Source: an uncultured Bacteroidota bacterium
GTDB taxonomy: Bacteria > Bacteroidota > Rhodothermia > Rhodothermales > Salinibacteraceae
Direction of reading: 5' to 3'
Assembly (NCBI GenBank): GCA_913055845.1
Contig: CAJXKO010000004.1
Span: 21,593-85,592, forward strand
DNA length: 64,000 nt
Shown: piece by piece, positions 42,410 through 46,381 of the stretch
Layout of the letters: each line of letters starts with the position of its first letter
Position numbering within the stretch: the stretch's first letter is position 1
Notes under the pieces: model-generated
Database searches by the model: none
Told to the model about the DNA's origin: nothing
What the model saw: only the letters and a program-made list of their open reading frames with translations
Position numbers and translations under genes: made by a program

Positions 42410-42625
42410 TCCCCGAAGCGGGCCTTTCCCCGAACAGAACTCCTCGCGCGACGAGCTCTCTTCCCCCCAACTTATCGACCGATGCGAGCCGCCCACTGAG
42501 GGAGCATCAACCGCCCACGTGCTGCTACCCATGGGAGCGCGTGCCCATGTCCCCATATAGGGGACCGCAAAGAACGCCGTCTATATCCAATTCTTAACGG
42601 CGACTTCCCCGGACTGGGCGAACGA

Positions 42626-42682
42626 GTCGTCACGTTGTGACTTACCAGTCATCGTGTGACTCAATAGTCACCTCCTGACGAC
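42626..42682. promoter_or_regulatory. Nested dyad operator candidate for the adjacent TetR regulator
   Basis: 26-bp half-sites GTCGTCACGTTGTGACTTACCAGTCA and (reverse complement) GTCGTCAGGAGGTGACTATTGAGTCA around TCGTG; contains TGACTTACCAGTCA and GTGACTCAATAGTCAC. Confidence 0.7.
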
Positions 42683-42704
42683 TGCTTCATCCCTACTTCA
42701 GTCC

Positions 42705-43418
42705 ATGTCTGTCTCCTCCGACTCCTCCCTGTCCCGTCGCGAGCGCGAGCGCAAGCGACGCCGTCGCGCGATGCGGCGGGCCGCCCAGTCCGTCTTTGCG
42801 GAGAAGGGGTACGAACAGGCCACCCTCGACGAGATTGCCGAGCGTGCTGAATTCGGCAAGGGCACCCTCTACAACTACTTCGAAAACGGGAAGGAGGGGC
42901 TCCTCTTCGCCATTTTCGACGAGGTCTACGACGACCTCCACGAGATGATACGGTCTACCTTCGGCAAGGACGGTGCCCATCCCCCTTCGTTTCGGGATGC
43001 ATTCCATGCCTTGGTCGTGCGGTCGTTTACCTACTACGAGGAGCGGGAAGAGCTTTTCTTGATCCTGATTAAGGAGGCCCACCGTCTCTGCTTTAGTAGC
43101 GACGTGGAGAAGGCGGCCTATTTCCAGGAACAGCAGCAGCGGATGCTCGACGCACTGGTGCCGGCCGTCGAGTCTGCCATGTCGGCAGGGAGCATCGCCT
43201 CGCTCCCGCCGCGGTCGGTCGCTCACATGCTCCTGGAGGTGGTGCACGACCTGGTCGTCCACCGCTGCCTCACGGAGCGGAGCGAGGCGGACGGGACGTT
43301 GCGCCAGCACCTCCCGAATGCCCCCCTCCTGCACGACCCCGAGGCCGCCGCCGATTTTCTTACCTCCCTTCTCTTCGACGGCCTGGGGACGGATGACCGG
43401 TCTGCGGACGTTGAATAA
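42705..43418 (+). CDS. TetR/AcrR family transcriptional regulator
   Basis: RAMRRAAQSVFAEKGYEQATLDEIAERAEFGKGTLYNYFENGKEGLLFAIFDE. Confidence 0.93.
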   Translation: MSVSSDSSLSRRERERKRRRRAMRRAAQSVFAEKGYEQATLDEIAERAEFGKGTLYNYFENGKEGLLFAIFDEVYDDLHEMIRSTFGKDGAHPPSFRDAFHALVVRSFTYYEEREELFLILIKEAHRLCFSSDVEKAAYFQEQQQRMLDALVPAVESAMSAGSIASLPPRSVAHMLLEVVHDLVVHRCLTERSEADGTLRQHLPNAPLLHDPEAAADFLTSLLFDGLGTDDRSADVE

Positions 43419-43439: not shown

Positions 43440-45152
43440 GTGACTGCCCTTGCCATGCGCGGCGCTGATTTCTTAGTCCCGGTCCTCGCTCTCCTAATGG
43501 GAGCAGCGACGCTGCTCGTCCCTCCGATCACCCATGCACAATCCGTGGATGTGGACTCGGAGGCCCCACGCCCCGCGGTGCGCTCGTCGGAACCACCTGC
43601 GAATCAGGCCGAGCCGCTCGTCCTCACAGTTCGGAAGGCCGTACAAACAGCGCTTGAACAAAACCTGGACCTACAGGCGGCCCAACTCGACGTCCGCGAC
43701 GCCGACGCGCAGGTACAGGAGGCGTGGGGCAACCTGTATCCGTCGCTCGATCTCACGGGGAGCTATACCCGCAACGTCGTGACGGCCAATCCCTTCGCCG
43801 GGAGCGACGCCCTTACGCTGCTCGGGGGTGGGGGCGAAACAGAGTGGCTCGCCTTTAACGAACGACGCCGCCTGGACAACAACCCCGAAACCGACCCAAT
43901 TCCCTTTTCCACCTTCACGCAACGCCAGCGGGATAGCATCGCCGCGGCAGGCATCTCGCTGGGCGGTGCCGGCGGCAACCCCTTCGGCGTAGACAACGAG
44001 TTTCGTGGGGGGCTTCAACTTACCCAGACGCTCTACAGCAAGCAAGCCTTTGCCTCGGTGAAGGGATCACAGCAGTTCAAAGACGTGAGCCGCTTTGCAC
44101 GCGACCGCCAGGTGCAAGAGGTTACCAACCGGGTGATCACGGACTACTACCGAGCCCTGCTCGCCCAAGAACGGGCGCGAGTTCTACAAAACAGCGTAGA
44201 TCGAGCCCAAAAGACACTCCAGGAGGTATCGACCCGCGTACAGCAGGGGGTGACCCCGAAGGCCCAGCGTCTAGGGGCCAATGTGGAGCTCTCCAACGCC
44301 CGTACGCAGGCCATCGAAGCCCGCAACGCCGCCGATCTCGCACAGGATCAACTCAAGCGCACCATTGGCCTCTCCCCGGACCGGCCAATCCAGCTCGACG
44401 GCACCCTCGACGAGCAGCGCAAAGACGGCCTGCAGAATGTATCGCTCGAAACCATCTCGATGTCACGGGCCGTGAGTCAAGCCATCGAAAACCGGCCGGA
44501 CCTCCAGCGCGCCCGACTCAATGTGGAACTGCGTGACATTCAGGCCGAAGCAAGCCGCTCTGCGTACTTCCCGCGTGTGGAGGCCGTCGCCAACTTCAGC
44601 TACTCGGGACGCGTCCCCGACGACCGCTCGCGCGTCCTAACCAACGACCCGAATCGACCGAATCAGCCGACGCCCTTCTTCTTCCGGGAGCAGCAACGAG
44701 GCTTTTTCAACGATGACTTCTGGAATCCCTCGTTCAGCGTAGGGCTGCAGTTGAACTGGAACCTGTTCGACGGCTTTCAGCGATCCTCGCGCGTACAGCA
44801 GGCCGAAATTCAGCGCCAGCGTGCCGAGCTTCAGCGTGACCAGCTGCGGCGGGCCGTCACGCTAGAGGTGCGACGGGCCGTGCGGGACCTCGAGAACGCC
44901 CGGGAGCGCATCGAGTCGCAGCAGACGAACGTGCGACGGGCCGAGCTCAACTACGACCACGTGTCGCAACGCGTGAGCGAAGGCGTCGCGAGCCAGATTG
45001 AGCTTCGAGAAGCCTCCGAACAGCTCGATCAGAGTCGCCTCAACTACCTCCAGGCCGTGCACGACTACTTGGTTGCGCGCAGCGATCTGGAGACGGCCCT
45101 CGGCCAGCCGCTCACGCCCACCTCCGAATCGTACCTCATGACGCGTCGATGA
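43440..45152 (+). CDS. TolC-family outer-membrane efflux protein (GTG start)
   Basis: Paired OEP repeats: LTVRKAVQTALEQNLDLQAAQLDVRDADAQVQEAWGNLYPSLDLTGSYT ... NRPDLQRARLNVELRDIQAEASRSAYFPRVEAVANFSY. Confidence 0.92.
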   Translation: MTALAMRGADFLVPVLALLMGAATLLVPPITHAQSVDVDSEAPRPAVRSSEPPANQAEPLVLTVRKAVQTALEQNLDLQAAQLDVRDADAQVQEAWGNLYPSLDLTGSYTRNVVTANPFAGSDALTLLGGGGETEWLAFNERRRLDNNPETDPIPFSTFTQRQRDSIAAAGISLGGAGGNPFGVDNEFRGGLQLTQTLYSKQAFASVKGSQQFKDVSRFARDRQVQEVTNRVITDYYRALLAQERARVLQNSVDRAQKTLQEVSTRVQQGVTPKAQRLGANVELSNARTQAIEARNAADLAQDQLKRTIGLSPDRPIQLDGTLDEQRKDGLQNVSLETISMSRAVSQAIENRPDLQRARLNVELRDIQAEASRSAYFPRVEAVANFSYSGRVPDDRSRVLTNDPNRPNQPTPFFFREQQRGFFNDDFWNPSFSVGLQLNWNLFDGFQRSSRVQQAEIQRQRAELQRDQLRRAVTLEVRRAVRDLENARERIESQQTNVRRAELNYDHVSQRVSEGVASQIELREASEQLDQSRLNYLQAVHDYLVARSDLETALGQPLTPTSESYLMTRR

Positions 45153-46381
45153 TTTCCTCCCTCCTCGGTCGACCCTCTTTCCCCGACGATTCGCCCCTCC
45201 AATCCATGCCCACCGTCTGGCCCCCCTTCAGATCTCGCACATCGCGCCGCACCGCATCGCTAATCCTGAGCGCAGTTGTGCTGCTGGGCGTCCTGGCGAG
45301 CACCAGTGGCTGCGAGGACCAGCAGGTGTCGGACGCCTCGGCAAAGGCCCCGTCCGAGCCCAAAACCCGCGTGGAGACGCTCGTTCTGGCTCCCACCTCG
45401 TTCACCGACGTCATTGAACTGACCGGCAGCGTGGAGGCGCTCGACGACGCTACGCTCTCGGCCCAGACCAACGGCACTGTGACGATGCTGCGCGACCGGG
45501 GCACGCGTGTCCAGGAGGGCGAACTAGTGGCCGCCATCGACGCCGACGAGGCGCAGGCGGCCGTGGTGCAGGCGCGGGCCCAGTACGACCTGGCTCAGGA
45601 CCGCTTCGAGCGGCAGCAGCCCCTCTACCGCGACTCCGTGATCAGCGCACTGGAATTCGAGCAGGTCCGCTCGGAACGCAACCAGGCACGGGCCGCCCTC
45701 ACCCAGGCCGAAAAGCGGCTTACCAACACACGCATCGAAGCCCCTTTCGACGGCACCGTCGAAGAGCGCTTCATCGAAAAAGGCGAACAGGCGGCCCCCG
45801 GGACCCAGGTGGCCCGCCTCGTCAACACACGCCGCGTGAAAGTCACCGCGGGCGTGCCGGAGCGCTACGCCAACGACATTCGGGAGGGCACGCCCGTACA
45901 GCTCGACTTTCGCCGCTACAACGCCGGCGTGCGCACCGCCGAGGCCTCATTCGTCGGCAGTGCCATCGACCCCGACAGCCGCACCTTCCCCATCGAGGTC
46001 ACAGTTTCCAACGAGAACGACCGCTTGAAGCCCTCGATGGGCGTAACCCTGCGGGTGACTCGTGCCGTGCTTGACAGTGCGGTCGTAATTCCGCGCTCGG
46101 CCGTGATCCGGGACGAGACAGGACCACACGTCTATGTGGCCGACCGCACCGACAGCATCGCGGTCGCTCGCAACCGCGACCTGGTTCTGGGCCCCGCTAC
46201 CGGTGGGCGCGTCGTGGCCGATTCAGGCCTTGCAGCGGGCGACGAGGTGGTGATCGTGGGTCAAAACAATGCGTCGCCCGGCGCCCCGCTGGAGATTGCC
46301 CAGCAGTACAACCGCACTACGGCCGCCGGCACGCCCTACACGGACAAATCGGACCTTCCTACCCCTCCGACCGACGAGTGA
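45149..46381 (+). CDS. RND efflux periplasmic adaptor (MFP/HlyD-like lipoprotein)
   Basis: LSAQTNGTVTMLRDRGTRVQEGELVAAIDADEAQAAVVQARAQYDLAQDRFERQ; TRIEAPFDGTVEERFIEKGEQ; 4-nt overlap with upstream gene. Confidence 0.92.
   Translation: MISSLLGRPSFPDDSPLQSMPTVWPPFRSRTSRRTASLILSAVVLLGVLASTSGCEDQQVSDASAKAPSEPKTRVETLVLAPTSFTDVIELTGSVEALDDATLSAQTNGTVTMLRDRGTRVQEGELVAAIDADEAQAAVVQARAQYDLAQDRFERQQPLYRDSVISALEFEQVRSERNQARAALTQAEKRLTNTRIEAPFDGTVEERFIEKGEQAAPGTQVARLVNTRRVKVTAGVPERYANDIREGTPVQLDFRRYNAGVRTAEASFVGSAIDPDSRTFPIEVTVSNENDRLKPSMGVTLRVTRAVLDSAVVIPRSAVIRDETGPHVYVADRTDSIAVARNRDLVLGPATGGRVVADSGLAAGDEVVIVGQNNASPGAPLEIAQQYNRTTAAGTPYTDKSDLPTPPTDE

Follow-up and report, generated by a model that had tools for sequence, protein, structure and literature searches.

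A predicted tandem TetR operator with a 19-bp period upstream of an RND efflux operon

The DNA upstream of a TetR/AcrR-family regulator gene contains a row of short palindromes repeated every 19 bp, and we propose that this row is the tandem, multi-unit auto-operator through which the regulator would repress its own tetR-tolC-MFP-RND operon. From the sequence and its conservation, we estimate the probability of this reading at roughly 0.88. Occupancy of the array by several TetR dimers is likely and well supported, while cooperative binding of these dimers is plausible, if unproven. Throughout, the window refers to the whole stretch of DNA that was analysed, 64 kb in length. The host is probably a salt-loving, Salinibacter-like member of the Rhodothermales; its nearest named relatives are Bacteroidetes MAGs, two of which presumably belong to hypersaline series.

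The half-sites TGAC and GTCA alternate through this region, with GTCA at 42629, TGAC at 42638, GTCA at 42648, TGAC at 42657, GTCA at 42667 and TGAC at 42676. The steps between all of these listed half-sites are 9, 10, 9, 10 and 9 bp. When the 57-bp region was compared with itself, the match reached 0.58 at lags of 19 and 38 bp, against approximately 0.1-0.4 at other lags. The repeat unit is the 14-bp palindrome TGAC-N6-GTCA, arranged in tandem with a period of 19 bp. Two perfect units (U and D) lie 19 bp apart from centre to centre, and two degenerate units (A and T) flank them in exact phase, giving an array of about 71 bp in total (Table 1). The degenerate flanking units may perhaps be unoccupied.

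Table 1 Features of the predicted operator and the efflux operon
Feature	Position	Strand	Evidence and remarks
TTAAC block, candidate promoter	42594..42598	+	Orthologue alignment; 44 bp upstream of the 42638 half-site
Array unit A	42619..42632	.	CGAACGAGTCGTCA; 6/8 defining bases; exact 19-bp phase
Array unit U	42638..42651	.	TGACTTACCAGTCA; 8/8 defining bases; predicted TetR dimer site
Array unit D	42657..42670	.	TGACTCAATAGTCA; 8/8 defining bases; predicted TetR dimer site
Array unit T	42676..42689	.	TGACGACTGCTTCA; 7/8 defining bases; weaker site, in phase
TetR/AcrR-family regulator, 237 aa	42705..43418	+	Pfam TetR_N, E=8.9e-14; presumed array binder
TolC-like outer-membrane efflux protein	43440..45152	+	Pfam OEP, E=5.5e-67
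RND periplasmic adaptor (membrane fusion protein)	45149..46381	+	TIGR01730 RND_mfp, E=2.8e-63, above cut-off
RND efflux permease, 1310 aa	46479..50411	+	Pfam ACR_tran, E=1.4e-198

The first-pass annotation of this DNA had described a nested operator, a dyad of dyads, at 42626-42682. The four strings that it named are found where it placed them, and its 26-bp halves again match at 19 of 26 positions when recomputed. Its boundaries were too narrow: the strings do lie within them, but the true extent is approximately 42619-42689, with units A and T added. The right half of unit A overlaps the left outer arm of the 57-bp dyad (GTCGTCA), and the left half of unit T overlaps the right outer arm (TGACGAC). 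The two perfect and two degenerate units agree with the earlier suggestion that the site has room for at least two dimers.

A nested reading would have the 57-bp symmetry about 42654 itself recognised, either by a tetramer or by symmetrically paired dimers. In the window, 19 of the 28 pairs about this centre are complementary, and the extra bases GTC..GAC lengthen the symmetry. Yet such symmetry is automatic wherever half-sites alternate, and the 9/10/9/10/9-bp alternation accounts for it here. Two dyad centres in the window reach at least 19 pairs and 11 reach at least 18. As the best centre elsewhere scores 20, the nested symmetry alone stands only at the edge of the background. Among 63 orthologous arrays, complementarity of the non-half-site positions about the centre was 0.41, compared to 0.405 in shuffled sequences (mean z 0.14), and species with odd unit numbers have no such centre. 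Lacking covariation beyond the half-sites in these 63 orthologues, the nested dyad was rejected as the primary feature, and we consider its recognition as such quite improbable. The organising principle is instead the 19-bp tandem array, which replaces the dyad-of-dyads geometry of the first-pass annotation. What looks like a symmetric nest of palindromes can reflect an underlying tandem array.

The periodicity of the half-sites is far above chance. Chains of half-sites alternating at 9 and 10 bp reach a length of 6 at the array, 2 at most elsewhere in the window, and 3 at most in 100 composition shuffles. Across the 3.25-Mb assembly, a 2.5-unit pattern was matched exactly at the array and nowhere else. 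A wider regulon was also considered and rejected at the two-unit level. Single sites of the form TGACYN4RGTCA occur twice elsewhere in the genome, both times within ORFs, which is fewer than obtained with a reversed-pattern control.

Conservation of the array was assessed among TetR homologues. Of 114 genomes of the order, 81 had such homologues, and 84 upstream regions were oriented and read. The array was found at 76 of these 84 loci, and at every homologue locus with more than 37% identity and linkage to an efflux operon. This is the conservation of half-sites in orthologous promoters that the first-pass annotation had named as a check, and it upholds the prediction of an operator for the adjacent TetR. 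Of the 76, 72 loci had a two-unit score of 13-16 out of 16 (shuffled sequences had a mean of about 9 and a maximum of 13), and four more (L058, L087, L099 and L111) were added once a spacing of 20 bp was accepted and the upstream stretch lengthened. The array is absent at eight loci. Those of L103, L116 and L118-L120 are without efflux genes in the downstream stretch that was read, and L114, L115 and L117 carry homologues only 27-33% identical, all of one family. A TolC-like homologue lies downstream on the same strand at 77 of the 84 loci.

Distances between strong sites in shared promoters were 19 bp in 91 cases and 38 bp in 27, and any other value occurred at most twice. The number of units per array ranges from two to four, depending on the species. 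Ten orthologues have an upstream TGAC that is 20 bp, rather than 19 bp, before the next unit; hence, exact phasing is not absolute. In these variants (L058, L077, L083, L087, L096, L107, L111, L113, L121 and L122) the right half is mostly degenerate, and any following unit still comes at 19 bp.

We also searched for the array independently of the homologue loci. The pattern TGACN6GTCRN5TGACN6GTCA was detected in 55 of the 114 genomes of the order, with zero matches for the reversed control. In those 55 genomes it always adjoins the TetR gene, with the exception of one contig that ends there (G090:C328). A stricter pattern, applied to 245 genomes of the class, recovered only two more genomes outside the order. 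Both of these loci displayed two perfect units at 19 bp directly before a TetR gene, followed by a TolC-like gene, and their regulators are 38-39% identical. The array is thus deeply conserved and exclusively linked to the adjacent TetR regulator gene, and its conservation across the whole order indicates that it is real.

The alignment of 63 arrays with 19-bp spacing revealed how the units differ by position. Half-site letters are near-invariant, at about 2 bits each, and the left halves (TGAC) of U and D are invariant or nearly so. Unit D, with consensus TGACY....RGTCA, is the most strongly conserved. Unit U has the typical form TGACGTANNGGTCR, and its right half is degenerate in many families (GTCG or GTTC). 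At the position of unit A, Salinibacter relatives displayed TGAAYN5GTCA (TGAACN5GTCA or TGAATCN4GTCA in the orthologues), and on the downstream side these relatives may have a unit resembling TGACN6(T/C)TCA. Several other families share the degenerate form of unit T (TGACN6TTCA or TGACN6TCCA).

These differences bear on whether the site could be a one-dimer operator, in which a single unit, most likely D, is bound and the others are low-affinity relics or serve to raise the local repressor concentration. The invariance of D, the degenerate right half of U in many families and the variation of the flanking units all speak for such an arrangement. However, in the alignment of orthologues the left half of U is fully conserved as TGAC, and the spacing stays at 19 bp throughout the class, indicating that U is not a relic. 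We therefore regard a one-dimer operator as unlikely, though it is the most credible of the alternatives that we weighed against a multi-unit operator.

The same alignment speaks to control at the RNA level, in which the transcribed array would form a long nested hairpin acting as an attenuator or leader. The 90-nt strand 42611-42700 folds at -35.6 kcal/mol (z -4.8 relative to shuffles), but any row of inverted repeats folds stably, so this strong fold is a by-product of the alternating half-sites. It is the half-site letters themselves that are conserved, beyond their mere pairing; the arrays tolerate changes on one side only, such as GTCA to GTCG, and the rest of the nested helix has no compensatory changes. 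A hairpin of this kind is, in our view, very hard to credit.

The adjacent gene is the best candidate, by far, for the protein that binds this predicted operator, given the match of its recognition helix and its exclusive linkage to the array. Its TetR_N match scores 51.5 bits, against a cut-off of 24. As for a local auto-operator of the TetR/AcrR type, a TetR_N gene lies adjacent and the palindromic site upstream is conserved in the orthologues. In a profile comparison with the aligned array-linked regulators, PDB entry 3VUQ, which we take to be the structure of SbtR, ranked among the best matches. The recognition helix of the local regulator, AEFGKGTLYNYF, parallels AEVGKGTIYLYF of 3VUQ, and the two are nearly identical (GKGTLYNYF versus GKGTIYLYF in SbtR). 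Among 24 aligned regulators, GKGT.YNYF is invariant, save for L, I or V at one position.

SbtR (TTHA0167) is a TetR-family protein of Thermus thermophilus for which selection experiments revealed a preference for TGACTGGCCAGTCA, with the consensus TGACYRNNYRGTCA, to which binding has been shown (PMC4948773). In gel-shift assays it forms a second, slower complex, read by the authors as 4:1 (PMC4948773). The operator unit described here and the SbtR operator share the same 14-bp TGAC-N6-GTCA palindrome. Both TGACTTACCAGTCA and TGACTCAATAGTCA have the SbtR-type outer frame TGACY....RGTCA (Y5, R10), and they agree in part at the inner positions R6/Y9: U has T6 instead of R and C9, and D has C6 instead of R and T9. 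Thermus SbtR sites are listed as single palindromes scattered over several genes (PMC4948773), in contrast to the 19-bp tandem array observed here only at the regulator's own efflux operon.

We do not assign the regulator as an SbtR orthologue: the single-sequence match covers residues 17-82 only (E=1.4e-6), and other TetR proteins score higher. We liken it to SbtR in its predicted DNA recognition and do not file it as SbtR. Another register of the array, AGTCA-N5-TGACT with a half-site distance of 9 bp, was disfavoured on two grounds. N6 is the spacing of the site that SbtR selected experimentally, and some arrays, for instance at L003, start with TGAC and end with GTCA, being made of whole N6 palindromes.

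A different regulator, for example a TetR paralogue or a CRP/FNR-type protein, might be suspected from the TGTGA-like strings near 42636 and 42655. The CRP site is TGTGA-N6-TCACA. The spacing of the array differs from that of CRP sites, the array tracks the TetR gene between genomes and is absent elsewhere, and SbtR, which has a matching recognition helix, binds this very palindrome. It is thus highly improbable that such a protein, and not the adjacent TetR, is the binder of the array.

The regulators also displayed a basic N-terminal arm, LSRRERER..RR, before the helix-turn-helix (residues 9-20; within 42705-42764 of the window). Arm residues R11, R14, E15, R19 and R20 are invariant in 24 regulators. 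Possible contacts of this arm are with the minor groove or with an adjacent dimer.

Upstream of the array, orthologues share further conserved blocks. The TTAAC block occurs at exactly -44 in six orthologues and at -32/-33 in others. In 42 of 73 loci, G[AC]A[TA]C precedes U by exactly 18 bp, and in the window it corresponds to the GAAC of unit A (42620-42623). In many orthologues, a T-rich or TTAAC stretch lies about 14-26 bp farther upstream than G[AC]A[TA]C. In many orthologues, these two elements stand at a constant distance from the array although the gap between array and start codon differs widely, so that this block is probably a promoter. A scan for sigma70-type promoters upstream of the array in the window gave no match, and the candidate promoter is probably of an uncharacterised type of the order.

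Based on these findings, we postulate the following mechanism. Each palindrome would be bound by one TetR dimer, which would insert its two recognition helices into successive major grooves to read the TGAC half-sites. In B-DNA, a unit spacing of 19 bp corresponds to about 65 Å and 1.8 helical turns. On units so spaced, adjacent dimers would be placed side by side and rotated by about 70 degrees relative to each other. Bound dimers would cover approximately 70 bp between the probable promoter block and the start codon, and an occupied array would block transcription of tetR-tolC-MFP-RND. A ligand, probably a substrate of the pump, would release the repressor and lead to induction. Repression, and not activation, is assumed because the regulator belongs to the TetR family, and TetR binding to the array and simultaneous occupancy by multiple dimers are likewise steps that we infer.

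Multi-dimer operators are known among TetR-family proteins. QacR, CprB, CgmR and Ms6564 bind as two dimers per operator of 22-32 bp, cooperatively in the case of QacR and CprB (PMC4150764). CprB has its two dimers on opposite faces of a single short site, and QacR is placed likewise by the authors' analogy (PMC4150764). The array is not of this type: its units are non-overlapping, arranged head to tail at 19 bp and two to four in number, and its dimers are proposed to lie side by side instead of in opposite-side pairs. A precedent for more than two TetR-family dimers on one operator is EthR of Mycobacterium tuberculosis, which reportedly binds its own operator cooperatively as an octamer in autoregulation (Engohang-Ndong 2004, cited in PMC5403819). 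The target of EthR is a divergent monooxygenase gene, while the array precedes an RND pump operon.

In its gene content, the locus is reminiscent of MtrR-mtrCDE and AcrR-acrAB, which also pair a TetR-family repressor with an RND efflux system (PMC6755732). Unlike the operator reported here, the MtrR site is a pseudo-direct repeat in a 27-mer, with no TGACN6GTCA array described (PMC6755732). A full-text literature search with partial journal coverage found no tandem palindromes in TetR operators and no Salinibacter TetR operators. The general type of switch is familiar, but in the literature searched we found no description of this variant, in which a 19-bp tandem array varies in copy number.

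We tentatively suggest, as a possibility that we hold well short of probable, that the array is an adjustable switch. In the stretch separating promoter and gene, cooperative side-by-side dimers would form a spiral filament, and the sharpness and leakiness of efflux induction would be tuned by adding or degrading units and through position-specific affinity. Were this true, the tandem array would be a TetR operator mode that differs from the opposite-face pairing in QacR and CprB.

These findings provide a clear, deeply conserved predicted operator for a regulator family of the order, presumably that of Salinibacter, Rhodothermus and their relatives, for which no characterised TetR operator was found in the literature searched. 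With natural arrays of two, three and four units, it becomes directly testable how the number and phasing of operators affect cooperative repression by TetR.

Two further observations concern individual loci. The RND permease of the window has 1310 aa, compared to about 1020-1050 in AcrB-type profiles, which it matches in two separated stretches; it appears to contain a large extra middle segment. Meanwhile, the related genomes at L016 and L017 carry an extra 18-bp palindrome, TGACTGACCAGTCAGTCA, approximately 145-159 bp before the matched TetR region begins. It comprises two overlapping TGACN6GTCA sites, does not share the 19-bp phase of the main array, and may be another operator or a terminator.
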